From: a virus
Virus record (IMG/VR): IMGVR_UViG_3300020370_000028
Coordinates: 1-25,738 of that record
DNA: 25,738 nucleotides
Direction: 5' to 3' (one strand)
Shown one piece after another: positions 2,200 through 10,896 of this stretch (position 1 is its first letter; every line of letters begins with the position of its first letter). A model generated the notes under the pieces. The model saw only the letters and a list, made by a program, of their open reading frames with translations, was not told where the DNA came from and ran no database searches. A program made the translations under genes and the position numbers.

Positions 2200-2620
2200 G
2201 CGTTATAAGCGAGGAAAGTACTTTCCTAAAAAACCTAATAAGTATAAAGGTGATTATCGTAATATAGTCTATAGGTCAGGTTGGGAACTTAAGTTCATGA
2301 AATTTTGTGATTATAATTCTTCTATTACCGAATGGGGTAGTGAAGAAATTATTATTCCTTATATTTCACCTGTTGATGGTAAACGTCATAGATACTACCC
2401 AGATTTTTATGTTAAATCTAAGGGTAAAAAGTATATAGTAGAGGTTAAACCATTAAGACAGACTAAAGAACCAAAAACGCAGAAAAAGGTTACTAAAAAG
2501 TATATTAATGAAGTTGTCACTTGGAGTGTCAACAATGCAAAGTGGAAAGCAGCAACCGAGTTTTGCAAAGATTATAATATGGAGTTCATGATCATTACAG
2601 AAAAGGAGCTTAGAGTATAA
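2198..2620 (+). CDS. 4: head completion protein / endonuclease gp4
   Basis: T4 gp4-type head-completion protein (140 residues, T4 about 150), required to finish DNA-filled heads before tail joining. The sequence shows a PD-(D/E)XK nuclease core like TnsA: E30 in the SGWELKFMKF helix, P68-D69 in RYYPDFYV, and E82-V-K84 in YIVEVKP. The N-terminus is strongly basic (RYKRGKYFPKKPNKYK), fitting DNA contact. The family is reported to cut branched DNA. The stop TAA overlaps the ATG of the next gene by one base (TAATG), so the two are probably translationally coupled. It starts only 38 nt from the divergent gp48 start. Confidence 0.85.
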   Translation: MRYKRGKYFPKKPNKYKGDYRNIVYRSGWELKFMKFCDYNSSITEWGSEEIIIPYISPVDGKRHRYYPDFYVKSKGKKYIVEVKPLRQTKEPKTQKKVTKKYINEVVTWSVNNAKWKAATEFCKDYNMEFMIITEKELRV

Positions 2621-3534
2621 TGCCTTGGCGTTCAGACATACCACATAAACAGCAAGCTAGATCGGGGTATCCAAGTTTGCAAGAGATGATGGCATTTTCC
2701 TTAAAAGATAAGGATTATTCTCCAGCTTCGACTAATTTATTCACAATACACATTACAACACCAGCGTTATTAAAAAACTGGCAGGCAAGAGATGATGGAA
2801 GTCATACAATATCAGATACTATTGGATATAGAGATTCAACATTTATGCCTGATGCAGGTGGTAAAGGTGGACTATTAGGTAAATGTTTAAATTTTTATTG
2901 TCAAACTATTAGTATACCAAGTAAACAGGTTACAACTGGTTCACTTGTTAATATAGGTACTGCAACTAAGTATGCTACAGGATCTGCTTTCAGTCAAATT
3001 TCTGCAACCTTTATTGCACCTAAATCTCAACATAGTAGAAATTTCTTTGAAAGATGGATACAATTGATGGCTCCTGATGCCAATCAATATAGTGATTATT
3101 ATGATTATTATAATGCTCCTAGAATGATGATTTTTAAATGGGAGAAAGGTGGACAACGTGAAGAACCTTATACATTTGAAACTAGAAATCAAAATGCAAA
3201 GATAGAAGGATGGAATCCTAATGATAGACATCCACAGAAAGCATTTAATTATAAGTTGACCGCTAGTTGGGAGATGCAACAAGCATTTCCTTATAATCTA
3301 GGATCTACTCAGTTAAATAACCAAGCAGCACGTGCTATGACGTTTACAGTAGGATTCTTCTTTGAGCGTTATAGATTCTATACAGGAGCAGATTTTGATG
3401 AACCTGGTATAAGAACACAAATCTCTATTCCTGGAATGGGATCACGAGATAATGATTATTATGATCCTCTTGTTGATGCTCAACAGATATTTGGTGAAGT
3501 AGATGCAACACAAAAATCCCTCGGAATATGGTAA
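2620..3534 (+). CDS. 54: gp54-like baseplate tail-tube initiator
   Basis: A 304-residue tail structural protein, close in size to T4 gp54 (about 320), which sits on gp48 and nucleates tube polymerisation. Two blocks fit the tube-protein fold shared by gp54, gp48 and gp19. The first is a SIPSKQVTTGS strand followed by SQISATFIAP and a helix FFERWIQLM. The second is a late strand pair ending in AMTFTVGFFFERYRFY, which parallels the TTFDVTFAYRVM end of T4 gp54. A tyrosine-rich loop (DYYDYYNAPR) lies near residue 160. It is coupled to gp4 by TAATG. A divergent gp19-like tube protein is the alternative. The family is read from pattern memory, so confidence is moderate. Confidence 0.6.
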   Translation: MPWRSDIPHKQQARSGYPSLQEMMAFSLKDKDYSPASTNLFTIHITTPALLKNWQARDDGSHTISDTIGYRDSTFMPDAGGKGGLLGKCLNFYCQTISIPSKQVTTGSLVNIGTATKYATGSAFSQISATFIAPKSQHSRNFFERWIQLMAPDANQYSDYYDYYNAPRMMIFKWEKGGQREEPYTFETRNQNAKIEGWNPNDRHPQKAFNYKLTASWEMQQAFPYNLGSTQLNNQAARAMTFTVGFFFERYRFYTGADFDEPGIRTQISIPGMGSRDNDYYDPLVDAQQIFGEVDATQKSLGIW

Positions 3535-3780: not shown

Positions 3781-4491
3781 ATGCCATTACCTACATTAAC
3801 TGTACCTAAGTACAAACTGAAACTGCCTTCTGATGGCAGAACTGTCAATTTTAGACCTTTTCTTGTAAAAGAAGAGAAATTGCTACTTCTAGCAACTGAG
3901 ACAGGTAGTCAAGAAGATATTGTTGCTGCAATTAAAAATATAATTGCTGAATGTACTGATATTCATGATATTGATGACCTTCCAACTTTTGATATTGAAT
4001 ATGTCTTCCTTCAAATCCGTACCAAATCTGTTGGTGAGGCTGTTGAAGTTAACGTGACATGTCCTGATGATGGAGTAACGGAAGTACCTGTTAAAATACC
4101 TTTGAATGAAATCAAAGTCAAAAAAGACAAGAAGCATAAGAAGGAGATTAAATTGGGTGAAGATATTATCTTAACTATGACTTATCCTAGTTTAGATACA
4201 TTTGTTCAAATGAATTTCCAAGATGAAGAACCTACTGTAGATTCTGTTTTTGAAATGGCAGCAGGTTGTGTAAAGCAAATTGCTGATGCTGAACAAGTAT
4301 ATGATGCTTTAGATACTCCTAAAGAAGAATTGATAGAATTTTTTGACCAGTTGAGTAGTAAGCAGTTCCAAGAAGTACAAGCCTTCTTTGATACTATGCC
4401 TAAACTATCTCATACTGTTAAGGTTACTAATCCTAAAACTAAAGTTGTAAGTGACATAGTTCTAGATGGATTAGCATCTTTTTTCGGTTAG
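3781..4491 (+). CDS. 26: gp26-family baseplate hub / tail assembly chaperone protein
   Basis: A 236-residue member of the T4 gp26/gp51 baseplate protein family (T4 gp26 about 208 residues). The N-terminus (LPTLTVPKYKLKLPSDG, then VNFRPFLVKEEK) is the hallmark beta motif of the family. A mid-region with a divergent CPDDG turn and a lysine-rich loop (KVKKDKKHKKEIK near residue 115) follows, then a helical C-terminus (FFDQLSSKQFQEVQAFF). In T4 these proteins act in hub assembly. Its position just ahead of the tape-measure genes matches that of the lambda G / P2 E tail chaperones. The last codons contain a -1 slippery heptamer (see 4479), so this ORF is likely also the N-terminal part of a 300-residue frameshift product. 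Confidence 0.8.
   Translation: MPLPTLTVPKYKLKLPSDGRTVNFRPFLVKEEKLLLLATETGSQEDIVAAIKNIIAECTDIHDIDDLPTFDIEYVFLQIRTKSVGEAVEVNVTCPDDGVTEVPVKIPLNEIKVKKDKKHKKEIKLGEDIILTMTYPSLDTFVQMNFQDEEPTVDSVFEMAAGCVKQIADAEQVYDALDTPKEELIEFFDQLSSKQFQEVQAFFDTMPKLSHTVKVTNPKTKVVSDIVLDGLASFFG
4479..4485 (+). other. -1 programmed ribosomal frameshift slippery site (T TTT TTC)
   Basis: TTTTTTC is placed in the gp26 frame as T TTT TTC, the exact X-XXY-YYZ layout for a tandem -1 slip. It lies two codons before the gp26 TAG stop (4489-4491). In the -1 frame the ORF stays open from 4455 to 4682 with no ATG, GTG or TTG start until ATG 4542. I see no strong stem within 10 nt downstream. Confidence 0.75.
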
Positions 4492-4682
4492 CTCTACTCC
4501 ATCAAAATTTACAGACCTTCTATGAAGTTAATTTTGCACTTATGCATCATCATAAGTGGCCATGTGATTATATTGATAACTTGATTCCCTTTGAAAAAGA
4601 GATCTATATGAATCTCTTAATGAATTATCTTAAAGAAGAAAATAGGCGAATGGAGGAGAGCCAGAGGCAACAACAAAAGTAG
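4485..4682 (+). CDS. -1 frame extension of gp26 (GT-like tail chaperone C-domain)
   Basis: From the slippery site the -1 frame reads 65 codons to TAG at 4680-4682. It includes LQTFYEVNFALMHHH and then IPFEKEIYMNLLMNYLKEE, ending in a charged, glutamine-rich tail (EESQRQQQK). If the ribosome slips at 4479-4485, the product is residues 1-235 of gp26 plus these 65, about 300 residues. This is the arrangement of phage tail chaperone pairs (lambda G/GT), which bind the tape-measure protein encoded immediately downstream, as here. The protein-like stretch begins well before the first possible start (ATG 4542), which argues against independent translation. It is too short to be T4 gp51 (about 249 residues), despite gp51 following gp26 in T4. 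Confidence 0.7.
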   Translation, partial: RLALLHQNLQTFYEVNFALMHHHKWPCDYIDNLIPFEKEIYMNLLMNYLKEENRRMEESQRQQQK

Positions 4683-4694
4683 CATTAACTAATA

Positions 4695-7600
4695 GTGGCA
4701 AATAAGTTTACACATAAGTTTGTAAATGCTGGAGTAAAGGGTAAACTTACACCAGCACTTTTTGCTGCAAGGAAATCTATTACTGCTACTAATAGGATAG
4801 GTAGTACAGTAGCTAGTATTGGTAATGTTGTATGGGATATGAGGCAAATTGCTGTCAAATCGGCAGCAAATAAAGTACTAGCAGAACAGGCACGAAGAAG
4901 AGCAGAACAAAGAGAAAGGGATGCTGAAGCAGAGGAAGCAGCAGAACTGGATAAATCGTTACAGAAGGATGGTAAAGCAGCTAAACCAACCTCTAAACAA
5001 AAGAGTCTTGCCGAAAAGCATTTTGGTTGGTTAAATGGGTTCCTTAGACCTATAATAGAATTTTTTGGGTGGTTAATTAAGATTACGGTCATTAAGAGTA
5101 TTCTTGATTGGCTGCAAGATCCGAAGAATAAGAATAGGTTAAAAGATTTTTTAAAGAAGTTTACTTTTGTTGTAAAGAAGTTATATTCATTTGTATCTTG
5201 GATTGTAAAGGATAATATTATTGATGGACTCGCAGATCTGTTCGGAGCTGGGGGTAAAGACGGTAAGGATTCATTCTGGGATAGAGTAAGAGGACTAGGT
5301 AAGCTCATGTTTGGGCTTACCATGATGCGATGGTTGCTCAATCCATTTGCAGCAGTAACTGATATTGTAGGGTTACTTGATTTTATAATGAATTGGCGAT
5401 TGCCACCATTGAGGATAAAAGGATTAAAGAGGCTTTGGGGTAGACGGATAAAGAAAGGATTTAATGCACTTCGAGAGAGTAAACGTCTGAAGAAGATGGT
5501 TCAAACCATCAAGAAATTTGGCAGACCCATAATGAAGCCGATTAAGTTCATTGGGAAGCAGTTTCAGAATTTTAGGAAGGGTTTTAAGGGTATAACAAAG
5601 TCAGTAGATATTGCTAAGACGACTAATACATTATTTCCTCATATAGCATCTGGTTCTAAGAAGGGTAGTAAGGCATTTGAGGCTGGAAAACAAGTTAGGC
5701 AAACTCTTAAAAATTTCTTTGGACCTGGAAGTAAGTTTGGTAATTTATTAAACAAATTACCTTTTAAAAATTTCCAAGTTCCTAAACCAATGAAGCCAAA
5801 CCTTTTTGGTAAGGCATTGAGTAACAGGTGGAAAAAGGCTGTTGATGGGATTAAAGCTGGTGTCAATACTATTGGTAAGTGGGGTAGTAATGGATGGGAT
5901 TATCTAAGTAAACTTCCTAAAAAACAATTTGATAAAGTTTCTAAGAGATTCCTTGAACCTGTATGGAAACGAGTAAAACCGATTGAGAAACATGCTCGGA
6001 GAGTAATGGATCCGTTTAATAATGCGGTTAAAAATTCTCCTGTTGGTAAGCTTGTTAGAGGTGCAGGAGCAAAGAAAGTAGGTGCTTCAAGATTAAAGGA
6101 TATACCTCTTTTAGGTTCTCTTGTCAATTTTTACTTTGCTGTTGATTCGTTTAAGAATGGTGATACTGTTGGTGGTGTATTAGAGTCTATTGCTGGTGCA
6201 GCAGAATTAGCTGGTTATTTGGTGCCAGGTGCTCAAGCGTTAATACCTGCTGGTGTTTTAATAGATCTATATTTACTTTCTAGAATTATTCCTGGTGGTG
6301 TCGGTGAATCTATAATGGAATGGGAGAGAACTAAAGCGATTCCAGGAATGGCTAATCTGTTTGAAGGTGCTCTTGCAGGTACTAAGGGTACAGTTCAAGC
6401 TGCTAAAACACAGATAAGTAAAGCATTTGATGGTATTAATAAATGGATTGGTGCTGATAAAGAAGCACAAAAAACAAAGCATATAACTGAAGGTCAGGGT
6501 GATGGCGAAGGAATGACCAAGGAAGAAGCTGATGCTGCTTATGAAAAAGATAAAACAGGTGGTAGAGGTTGGGGATGGTTAAATAAACTCTTTAGAAATA
6601 AGTCTCAAACTGATAAGCAAGTTAGGAAGGATGTTAAAAAGTATGGATATACTGTTCCTTCAGGTTCATTTTCTGCAGGGTCTTCACATACTGATAAAAC
6701 ATCTAGACATAGTACTGGTCATTCATCTAACCAACCAGCATTTAAACCTAAGAAACCTTGGTGGAAAGTATGGGAAAGAGGTGGTTATCCAGTTAAAGGT
6801 GCAGGTGGATCATTCTTTCTTGGTGGTCTAGCTAAAGGTATTGGAAAGGCATTTGGTGGGATAGGTAAAGCAATTGGTGGTATAGTTAGTGGTATTAGTG
6901 GTGCTATTGGTGGCATCATTAACACAGTAAAGGATGTTTTAGGTGGTCCATTAGGACAAATCTTGATGATGGCATTACCAGTAATGTTCCCTGCTGTTGC
7001 TTGGTTGGGACCAGTATTGAAAGGTATTAATGCTGTTATGGCATTGGCAAGTGGTGACCCATTAGGGGCCATAATGTCTCTGTCTGGTGCATTTAGCAGT
7101 ATTAATACTGTTAACGCCATAGCTATGCCTAAATGGATGCAATCCATGAGGTTCAGTAAGTTTGGTAACTTTATGGCAAACTTGAATGGACCAGGTGGAT
7201 TCTTAAGTAGTAAGATGGGTAAAATTGGTGTAGGGATACTCTCTGGTAACTATGGTGCTGCATTTAATGCTGCTATTGATGGTACATCTTTAGGTGCTAG
7301 TTTGGCTAACCTTGGTAATAAAGTTGATGAAATGGGACTCGGAGGTGTCCTTGGAGCCATACCAGGCTTAGGACCAACCCTACAGAATATGGGTCTTGGT
7401 GATGTTGTTGGAATTTCAAGTCTATTAACAGGTGATTTCTCTGCTGCTGGTTTCATTACTGGTATGGCAGAAAAGCATGGTTATGGTGGACTTGTTAAGG
7501 CAGCTCTTGGTATGGTCGGAGGTAATTTTGAACAGGGTATGATAGATCTTGCTAGTGAAATGGGTGTAAATCCTGAAATGTTTGGTGTTATTGATACATT

Positions 7601-7796
7601 ACAAATGTTAAGGGAGGGTGGTGAATCAGAGAAGCAAAAAATTATGCAGGAGATTGGAAGTATATCTGTTGTTAGTTTCCCTGTTGTTATTCAAAAACTT
7701 TTATCAATTCCAACACCAGTTGGAGTTGAGTCTGGAGGTGGAGGTGGCTCCAGTGGATCTGGTGGACTTCTAAGTCGATTGGGATTTGGTAAATAA
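4695..7796 (+). CDS. tape-measure-like tail protein 1 (1033 aa)
   Basis: Probable tape-measure or tail-lumen protein. It follows the putative G/GT-like chaperone frames, the usual site of a tape-measure gene. Residues 1-90 are helical, with a charged coiled-coil-like segment (QARRRAEQRERDAEAEEAAE, 65-84). Residues 116-218 hold hydrophobic helices that match residues 102-202 of the next gene. Residues 225-470 are very basic, with many aromatic/lysine repeats. Residues 690-830 are glycine-rich and hydrophobic (LGGLAKGIGKAFGG), typical of tape-measure proteins, which are extruded at infection. The C-terminus is a glycine/serine linker. The start is GTG at 4695, 12 nt after the frameshift ORF stop. 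No T4 gp29 identity is claimed. Confidence 0.65.
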   Translation: MANKFTHKFVNAGVKGKLTPALFAARKSITATNRIGSTVASIGNVVWDMRQIAVKSAANKVLAEQARRRAEQRERDAEAEEAAELDKSLQKDGKAAKPTSKQKSLAEKHFGWLNGFLRPIIEFFGWLIKITVIKSILDWLQDPKNKNRLKDFLKKFTFVVKKLYSFVSWIVKDNIIDGLADLFGAGGKDGKDSFWDRVRGLGKLMFGLTMMRWLLNPFAAVTDIVGLLDFIMNWRLPPLRIKGLKRLWGRRIKKGFNALRESKRLKKMVQTIKKFGRPIMKPIKFIGKQFQNFRKGFKGITKSVDIAKTTNTLFPHIASGSKKGSKAFEAGKQVRQTLKNFFGPGSKFGNLLNKLPFKNFQVPKPMKPNLFGKALSNRWKKAVDGIKAGVNTIGKWGSNGWDYLSKLPKKQFDKVSKRFLEPVWKRVKPIEKHARRVMDPFNNAVKNSPVGKLVRGAGAKKVGASRLKDIPLLGSLVNFYFAVDSFKNGDTVGGVLESIAGAAELAGYLVPGAQALIPAGVLIDLYLLSRIIPGGVGESIMEWERTKAIPGMANLFEGALAGTKGTVQAAKTQISKAFDGINKWIGADKEAQKTKHITEGQGDGEGMTKEEADAAYEKDKTGGRGWGWLNKLFRNKSQTDKQVRKDVKKYGYTVPSGSFSAGSSHTDKTSRHSTGHSSNQPAFKPKKPWWKVWERGGYPVKGAGGSFFLGGLAKGIGKAFGGIGKAIGGIVSGISGAIGGIINTVKDVLGGPLGQILMMALPVMFPAVAWLGPVLKGINAVMALASGDPLGAIMSLSGAFSSINTVNAIAMPKWMQSMRFSKFGNFMANLNGPGGFLSSKMGKIGVGILSGNYGAAFNAAIDGTSLGASLANLGNKVDEMGLGGVLGAIPGLGPTLQNMGLGDVVGISSLLTGDFSAAGFITGMAEKHGYGGLVKAALGMVGGNFEQGMIDLASEMGVNPEMFGVIDTLQMLREGGESEKQKIMQEIGSISVVSFPVVIQKLLSIPTPVGVESGGGGGSSGSGGLLSRLGFGK

Positions 7797-7821: not shown

Positions 7822-10800
7822 ATGGCAAGTATCCAGAAGTCATCAAAAATTAATATGTACAAGTTCGTCAATGTTGACGATCAAGGTGCAAGTGCGGATC
7901 CTGTTGCCAAAAGTATTAATGTACAGACTAGTGCCATTAATAATATGGGTAAAACCATTAATGGTATTGCTCAAACTGTCGTAACTTTAAAAAATATTGC
8001 TCTTCATAGATTACAGCAAGAAGAGAAAGCAGCACGAGAAAAATTTAAACCGAAATATACTAAACAAAGACAAAATCCATTCAAATCTTTAATGCTTAAT
8101 GTGAAAGCATATAAAGTTAAGGGATTCTTAGAGAGTATGCTTTCATTCTTAGGAAGTTTACTTAAAATATTCATTATTAGACCAATATTAAATTGGTTAT
8201 CAAATCCAGAGAATAAAGATAAATTAGTTAAGATATTAGAAGGTACTTGGAAGGTATTAAAAGGTATTACTGAGTTTCTTAGTAGTCAATTTGTTCATGC
8301 TATAAATGAGCTCCATGATGTTCTGAGTGGTGAAACTAGTATTTGGAAAAAGATAACATCATTCACTAAACTTTGGATTAAATTTGCTCTTGGCTTTATG
8401 GCCATCAAGTTCTTAAGAAATCCAGTTAAACTCTTAAGATCTGTAGCAAATGTTGGCAAGATGCTTGCCATCAAAACAAAATTAGCGAAGGCACAATTAG
8501 TTAAGAGGAAAAAATTCTTAACTGGTGGTAAATGGGCTAGAGGTAAATGGTTACTTGGTGGTGCTGTTGGTGCAACTGTACTTTGGCAGTTTGCTCAGTG
8601 GGCATTAGGTAAGAAGGAGAAAGAAGAATCTGGTGATGATAGCACTCCTAATTCTGGTGGAGGTGCTGATAGAGGTAAAGATAGAGCATTCTCTATACAG
8701 GAATATGGTGAAGATCTTACCACTGCTATGTACGATTCATTAGGATTAGAAAATCCTAATGATAAGAAGAAGAAAGAGAAGAAGAATATGTGGAACCCGA
8801 AGAATTGGTTCGGGGGTAAAAAAGATAAAGAATCTAAGAAGGATGGTAAGGATCCTAATGCATTAGGAATTCTTGCTGGAATGTATACGGCAAATAAACA
8901 GTTTGAACATCTGATTAAAACATTTAAGGAAGAGAGTTCAGAATTTAGCGGTAAGATGAATGATGCTGATGGTTCTGGTAAAGCAGAACTAATGCTTAAC
9001 CTTGCTGCTACACTTGAATCAGCATTGGGTAGTAAAAACCAAATGTTCCAAAAACTGCAACTGCAGACTCAGAATCTTGTTGAGAGTGCTTCAGATGTTG
9101 CTAATGGTGATAAGACTAGTATAGGTGACTTTTTAAAATGGGCAGGACATGATGTACAATCTAGAGAGGAAGGTGGTCCAGTTGGTTCTTTTGAAAACGG
9201 TGGAAAGTGGTTAAATGGACCTAATAGTGGATACCCTGCAGATCATAACGGGAATCCATTAATTGCTCACGGGTTAGAAGGATTGTTTACTAAGCCTGGT
9301 AGTAAGGATGGATTTATAGTACCATTTGATAATGCTGCAACTAGAAAAGATCCATTGTTAACTATGGTGAGGTTAGCACAAGCTAAGAAACTTGGATTTA
9401 AAAATGGACCACCAGGATTTGAGAAAGGTGGTTTTAATCTATTTAATCCGATGTCTTGGTTTGGGGATAAGAAAGCACAGACATTTATGAGAGGTGCTCA
9501 TGGAGATAGAAATGTACAAATTCAAGGAAGTGGATTAGCAGCTCAAGTTGGTCGTAACCGTCAAAATTTAAATGCTATTATGCAAGAGATGGGATATGCT
9601 TCTCCTTATGGTAATTACGCTCTTGGTGGTCCACTTGGAGTGCAAAATCTTAAGGATAATAAGACATATAGAATATCTCAGGATAAAGGATACTTTGAAA
9701 AATCTAAAGTTAAATCTGGTGGAGGAGGTAATTGGTTCACCAATATGTTTAAAGGTTGGGGTGGTGATAAAGGAAGTGGTGGTAACTGGGGATTAGGTGC
9801 AAACTTTGGGCAACAATATCAAGAACCTGGTTCAGGTGGATTAGGATTAGTACAAAGATTGGTTGCTTCTCATCGTGGAGATGAACTAACTTCAGCATTA
9901 CTAGCAAGAACAATCTTTAATAGAAAGGCTGCTATTGATAAGACTGGTAATTCCCAAATGTTTAAAGCGAAGAGTGGAAGTTTCCATGATATATTACATG
10001 CACCAGGTCAGTATCCTAATGTAGAAAGTGGTAAGATAAAGGGTACATTCTCTAATTCTGAGTTGAATGCTGCTGGTAAAGCTATGAAGTTAGCAAAAGA
10101 AGCACATAAACTTAAAGAACGTTTAAGTGAAAGTGGACTAGATCCAGCTAAAACACAGCAATTACTAACTGCTACCATATTCAAACCTGGTTCTGGTTTG
10201 AATAAAGGTGGATTAATGGGGTTACTTACTGGTGGTGGTGGCGTTAGATTTGGTAAATATACATTCCAGAATAAACCATCCAATGCTATGAATGCTTTGA
10301 TGGGTGGAATGAATCCATTAATGTTGAAAGGTATGATGAGTATAGTTAGTAATCTGGTCGGAGGAAAGGATGGTGGATTTGGTAAAGATCTTATTATGAC
10401 ACTTGCTAGTGGTATTATAGGTGGTGGGTTTGGTCAAAAAGAGGGAGGTAAAGGTGGTGGAATGATGGATGCTTTATTTGGAATGTTTGGTATGCCTACT
10501 AAGAGAGGTGGTCAAAAGGATAAGAAGCAATCTATGTCTGGTGGTTTAGGTCAAGTACTACAGAGTGTATTTGGTGGTAAAGGTGGAAAGGATAAGAAAG
10601 AAGAAAGGATGGAGTTTAAGAAGAGAGAGAATGAAAGACATAGACAGATAATGAAGTATGAAGCATCACAGCAGAAACGTAATATCATGTCTAGATTGCA
10701 TGACCAAGCTAGTCAAAATGCTAGAGAGATTACATCAGCAGTTAACTCATCCAATAAATCTGCTGCTAGTCAGGCAAGAATGGGTGCAGAAGCTGTTGCT

Positions 10801-10896
10801 AGATTATCTCAACAGGCACAACAATCAAAAGGAAATGCCTTTATGAGTGTATTCAAGTCAATAGCAACACAACTAAGTTCATCTAAGAAAAAATAA
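7822..10896 (+). CDS. tape-measure-like tail protein 2 with SleB-like segment (1024 aa)
   Basis: A large tail protein paralogous to its upstream neighbour. Residues 40-62 and 102-202 align with residues 33-55 and 116-218 of that protein (IIRPILNWLSNPENKDKL against VIKSILDWLQDPKNKNRL). Residues 455-520 contain a GG..NGPNSGYP...AHGLEG...FIVPFD pattern that I associate with cyanophage virion and tape-measure proteins. Residues about 673-765 resemble the SleB cell-wall hydrolase family: LVASHRGDELTSALLARTIFNR parallels AEARGE...VANVVLNR, and FHDILHAPGQYP parallels the VVYQPGQF block. Residues 790-900 are glycine-rich. The C-terminus (from about 925) is a charged coiled coil ending KSSSKK-like. 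It may span the tail tube and carry peptidoglycan-degrading activity, although the expected catalytic Glu lies in a diverged motif (SHRGD). Confidence 0.6.
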   Translation: MASIQKSSKINMYKFVNVDDQGASADPVAKSINVQTSAINNMGKTINGIAQTVVTLKNIALHRLQQEEKAAREKFKPKYTKQRQNPFKSLMLNVKAYKVKGFLESMLSFLGSLLKIFIIRPILNWLSNPENKDKLVKILEGTWKVLKGITEFLSSQFVHAINELHDVLSGETSIWKKITSFTKLWIKFALGFMAIKFLRNPVKLLRSVANVGKMLAIKTKLAKAQLVKRKKFLTGGKWARGKWLLGGAVGATVLWQFAQWALGKKEKEESGDDSTPNSGGGADRGKDRAFSIQEYGEDLTTAMYDSLGLENPNDKKKKEKKNMWNPKNWFGGKKDKESKKDGKDPNALGILAGMYTANKQFEHLIKTFKEESSEFSGKMNDADGSGKAELMLNLAATLESALGSKNQMFQKLQLQTQNLVESASDVANGDKTSIGDFLKWAGHDVQSREEGGPVGSFENGGKWLNGPNSGYPADHNGNPLIAHGLEGLFTKPGSKDGFIVPFDNAATRKDPLLTMVRLAQAKKLGFKNGPPGFEKGGFNLFNPMSWFGDKKAQTFMRGAHGDRNVQIQGSGLAAQVGRNRQNLNAIMQEMGYASPYGNYALGGPLGVQNLKDNKTYRISQDKGYFEKSKVKSGGGGNWFTNMFKGWGGDKGSGGNWGLGANFGQQYQEPGSGGLGLVQRLVASHRGDELTSALLARTIFNRKAAIDKTGNSQMFKAKSGSFHDILHAPGQYPNVESGKIKGTFSNSELNAAGKAMKLAKEAHKLKERLSESGLDPAKTQQLLTATIFKPGSGLNKGGLMGLLTGGGGVRFGKYTFQNKPSNAMNALMGGMNPLMLKGMMSIVSNLVGGKDGGFGKDLIMTLASGIIGGGFGQKEGGKGGGMMDALFGMFGMPTKRGGQKDKKQSMSGGLGQVLQSVFGGKGGKDKKEERMEFKKRENERHRQIMKYEASQQKRNIMSRLHDQASQNAREITSAVNSSNKSAASQARMGAEAVARLSQQAQQSKGNAFMSVFKSIATQLSSSKKK

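Follow-up and report, generated by a model that had tools for sequence, protein, structure and literature searches.

In tail assembly chaperones of T4-like phages, frameshifting is reportedly conserved in several groups, and the T4 group is reported to use genes 26 and 51. The T4-like tail assembly chaperone genes were identified by Vladimirov, Gautam & Davidson 2022 (Virology 566:9-15; 10.1016/j.virol.2021.11.003). In later articles, the same work is cited for poly-T slippery sequences within TAC-N genes of T4-like phages (PMC12846349), and some T4-like phages are described as having a short copy plus a fused longer copy in place of frameshifting (PMC10885494). T4 gp26 and gp51 themselves have been listed as hub assembly chaperones, the function of gp51, an essential protein, being given there as unknown (PMC3004832). 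Since the work of 2022, as summarized in the articles citing it, covers T4-like phages, the frameshift arrangement in these phages is already published, and the frameshift considered here was correctly recognized and belongs to a kind already described; the suggestion of the sequence-only reading that it might be unpublished in T4-like cyanophages did not hold.

The window, i.e. the whole stretch of DNA analyzed (25,738 nucleotides of IMG/VR record IMGVR_UViG_3300020370_000028), carries a gp26 homologue of 236 aa at 3781..4491; this gene, the elements at its 3' end, the tail tube-like gene and the 1033-aa tape-measure-like gene are on the plus strand. The protein matched Pfam family PF12322 (T4_baseplate; E 3.1e-74) and phrog_150 (E 7e-85), and an AF2 model was obtained at pLDDT 87.6, in which the FF pair is carried by a short helix at the end of the protein. 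This gene was assigned to the short chaperone form (TAC-N). Its 3' end reads, in the 0-frame, GCA TCT TTT TTC GGT TAG. The slippery heptamer T_TTT_TTC (4479..4485) is in register for tandem Phe-tRNA slippage by -1 and stands one codon (GGT) ahead of the stop codon TAG (4489..4491), at which the short form ends. The -1 frame extension (4485..4682; 65 codons plus stop) is translated as FFRLALLHQNLQTFYEVNFALMHHHKW..., running to the stop at 4680-4682, and the predicted fusion would consist of 235 gp26 residues plus 65, or 300 aa (TAC-NC). The segment is homologous to the C-terminal domain of T4 gp51 and matched phrog_634, labelled 'baseplate hub assembly catalyst' (= gp51), at E 2e-26. No start codon of any kind was found in the -1 frame of the window ahead of ATG 4542, which lies 19 codons past the slip and beyond conserved residues. 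The sequence-only reading had placed the heptamer and the open -1 frame at the right coordinates and in the right frames, and its statement that the latter is without a start for about 19 codons was confirmed. The genes of the window comprise approximately 7,500 codon positions, and among these TTTTTTC stands in slip register at just two, the second copy being 380 codons from the stop of its gene; from codon usage, NNT TTT TTC given X-F-F is expected about 0.08 times per gene. The slip site of gp26 is far beyond chance. Within the record, one gp26 match only was obtained; as it covers only a 25.7-kb fragment of the phage, another gp51, of full length, may lie outside it.

A tail tube-like gene is located upstream at 2620..3534 (phrog_45 'tail tube', E 3e-44), separated from gp26 by one 72-aa ORF. 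Downstream follows a tape-measure-like gene of 1033 aa (4695..7796), which is the presumed client of the chaperone; its role is suggested by size, position and matches to phrog_790/1272. The order tail tube, chaperone, tape measure is that of lambda-type (G/GT) loci. The ORF at 4695-7796 is followed by another of tape-measure size (7822-10896; 1024 aa). The two share a paralogous N-terminal region of approximately 220 residues (23% identity, E 8e-10), and both matched PHROGs labelled 'endolysin'; either of them may be the tape measure.

Conservation of the heptamer and of the -1 ORF among relatives, which had been proposed as a check, was assessed in two comparisons. In the first (83 sequences: 80 IMG/VR loci, two isolates and the window), TTTTTTC stood exactly one codon ahead of the gp26 stop and the -1 frame was open to the limit of each sequence in 83/83. 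In the widened comparison of 160 distinct sequences, a T-rich slip heptamer was retained at the same Phe-Phe pair, together with the -1 frame, in 158/160. It lay close to the stop, a few codons away at most, in 152; in six further sequences, three of which were inspected directly, the T-run was at the same Phe-Phe pair and the 0-frame stop came later. Deeply diverged carriers, phages of other hosts among them, included S-H34, Astolliot, pf16, phiN3, Aeromonas CC2, Yut3, XG4, Cronobacter S13, Schizotequatrovirus (Vibrio) R11Z and Xanthomonas X1, with the variants TTTTTTT (pf16, phiN3) and TTTTTTA (XG4). The heptamer was absent only from the Vibrio phages D503 and K364 (loci L090 and L091), which have a TAATG stop-start at the gp26/gp51 junction and still carry the gp51 domain in the -1 frame. 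A scan of viral contigs with the Vibrio gp26 as query gave no matches. Among 100 non-redundant sequences, selected because a heptamer was present, no variation occurred at any of the six T, and third positions nearby varied freely. Differences within the -1 extension were distributed over the -1-frame codon positions as 30/17/53%, a pattern by which the extension behaves as real coding sequence. It is also conserved as protein, with invariant P and E.

Both T4 gp26 (208 aa, 9e-64) and T4 gp51 (249 aa, 4e-52) matched PF12322, and the two proteins matched each other (E 2e-6); phrog_634 was matched by gp51 alone. A profile of 47 -1 extensions, with no T4 sequence included, was aligned by hhalign to T4 gp51 residues 200-244 (E 1.5e-5), with the second slip-site Phe falling on F200. 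A comparison of another profile (A1) with T4 gp51 was set aside, since A1 itself includes T4-type gp51 rows and the result would be circular. The AF2 model of a T4-type gp51 (pLDDT 95) consists of a gp26-like domain with three extra C-terminal helices. Judged by sequence comparison, T4 gp26 and gp51 are paralogues, gp51 corresponding to the frameshifted long form and gp26 to the short form. The separate genes 26 and 51 of T4, to which the sequence-only reading had drawn attention, are explained in this way, gp51 having the -1 domain fused. Genes 26 and 51 are divergent neighbours in T4 and in Aeromonas phage 31. RB43 (L094, 3001-4294) has, unlike T4, a gp51-like gene and then a gp26-like ORF (recognized by eye) in tandem on the same strand. 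Most simply, an ancestral frameshifted gene would have given way to duplicated genes in the T4 group, the change presumably having run in this direction.

The features of a T4-like (gp26/gp51 type) chaperone were found in the window: a PF12322 N-terminal domain, a C-terminal gp51 domain reached by a -1 shift, and a conserved slippery heptamer at the junction. Because slip site, start-less -1 ORF, gene position and homology all agree, the locus very probably represents a tail-assembly-chaperone pair of the lambda G/GT type, produced by programmed -1 frameshifting in a T4-type cyanophage, as had been proposed. Most ribosomes would stop at TAG 4489 and yield the 236-aa short form (gp26), and a minority, by presumption, would slip by -1 on T TTT TTC and read the 65 codons of the -1 frame. 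The extra helical domain of the resulting 300-aa long form would be the gp51 C-terminal domain. If lambda gpG/gpGT is taken as the model, the tape-measure protein from the downstream gene may be coated by numerous short and a few long copies, which would also recruit tube subunits; a chaperone action of this kind is suggested by gene order and by T4. Foldseek against the PDB returned no significant match for gp26 or gp51; the HK97 chaperone 2ob9 appeared at rank 2 for gp26 (E 0.73) and was absent from the best 50 matches for gp51. The window protein did not match any Pfam lambda-type chaperone (TAC) family, PDB sequence searches provided nothing useful, and a search of NCBIfam gave noise only.

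In most relatives, an SD-like element GA(G/A)GG stands at a constant 9 nt ahead of the slip heptamer; the window has a weak variant, GATGGA, at 4465..4470. The codon 14-12 nt ahead of the slip was GAG rather than GAA in 61/84 Glu cases, compared with 35% at other places of this region (Fisher p 1e-10), and predicted anti-SD pairing showed a sharp peak at the element (mean about -6 kcal/mol). The signal is partly protein conservation (Glu-Gly). The element resembles the stimulator of dnaX, in which an upstream SD stimulates frameshifting. A conserved RNA structure downstream of the slip site was not found: the consensus fold reached -2.1 kcal/mol without real covariation, and a downstream RNA stimulator was rejected on these grounds. 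Single-sequence folds of the downstream region gave a z of about -1.6 versus base-shuffled controls, which is weak. It is tentatively suggested, with somewhat more doubt than confidence, that GA(G/A)GG stimulates the -1 shift by anti-SD pairing, in the manner of dnaX and with no help from a downstream structure. If so, T4-like phages would have solved the same problem in three ways: by a frameshift with a stimulator, by duplication of the gene (T4, RB43), and by the TAATG stop-start of some Vibrio phages. Both the SD-like element and the Vibrio stop-start are possibly new to the literature.

A gp51 that is an independent small gene, re-initiating after the gp26 stop at an ATG, GTG or TTG of the -1 frame, would make the T-run incidental. 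This would agree with GenBank, where 'gp51' is annotated as a separate gene, and with the Vibrio phages D503 and K364, where a stop-start occurs without a heptamer. Against this, -1-frame start codons stand at no conserved place (the best position has ATG in 68% of the 100 non-redundant sequences), and the first one in the window is past conserved residues. Moreover, the same set has all six T invariant, the SD-like element keeps a constant distance to the heptamer and not to any start, and T4 carries the gp51 domain fused. A separate gp51 start was rejected as no start is conserved, and re-initiation is considered very unlikely.

The uninterrupted fused gene of T4 would equally suit a -1 ORF left over from the decay of a once-fused gene, or split off from such a gene by a sequencing frameshift. 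Such an origin does not agree with an identical break at the same heptamer in 158/160 distinct sequences, nor with the codon-position constraint on the extension; it is already refuted by this conservation and is given next to no weight. Similarly slight is the chance that slippage occurs and serves only to set the amount of gp26, the extension being functionless. Against this, the extension is conserved as protein down to its invariant P and E, and it is retained in the essential T4 gp51. Programmed frameshifting to a functional long form is preferred.

Under programmed frameshifting, the small cyanophage genes named 'gp51' carry a wrong annotation and represent the frameshifted end of gp26, which was confirmed in the larger set. 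In close cyanophage relatives, gp26 is followed by a very short 'gp51' with a start differing by record (S-IOM18 45 aa, P-SSM7 31 aa), and many cyanophage records (e.g. KJ019044, HQ634191) contain no separate gp51 gene over the -1 segment. A correction of the annotation would touch several hundred public phage records, and the puzzling T4 gp26 and gp51 would be explained as short and long chaperone forms. The BFVD entry A0A0A0YVM8 of Citrobacter phage Moon, named 'tape measure chaperone', matched the gp51 model (E 1.6e-3); its length of 545 aa hints at a fusion, or at an annotation in which genes were joined.

Compared with lambda gpG/gpGT, the locus has in common a position ahead of the tape measure and two forms, a short one and a long one reached by -1 frameshifting, whereas no sequence relation was detected and the slip site is T TTT TTC, unlike the G GGA AAG of lambda. 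The locus of Vandenendeviridae and Andersonviridae (PMC12846349) likewise shifts by -1 on a T-rich sequence close to the end of TAC-N, but with the motif GTTTTT and in other phage families. T4 gp26 and gp51 have domains homologous to those of the window and would jointly supply equivalent short and long forms; they differ in being two separate, divergent genes without a frameshift, the -1 domain being fused in frame in gp51. With the T4-like chaperones of Vladimirov et al., as described in the articles citing that work, the window shares short and long forms of the gp26/gp51 family and the poly-T -1 slip sites of some groups, and it represents a further, unannotated member of these chaperones.
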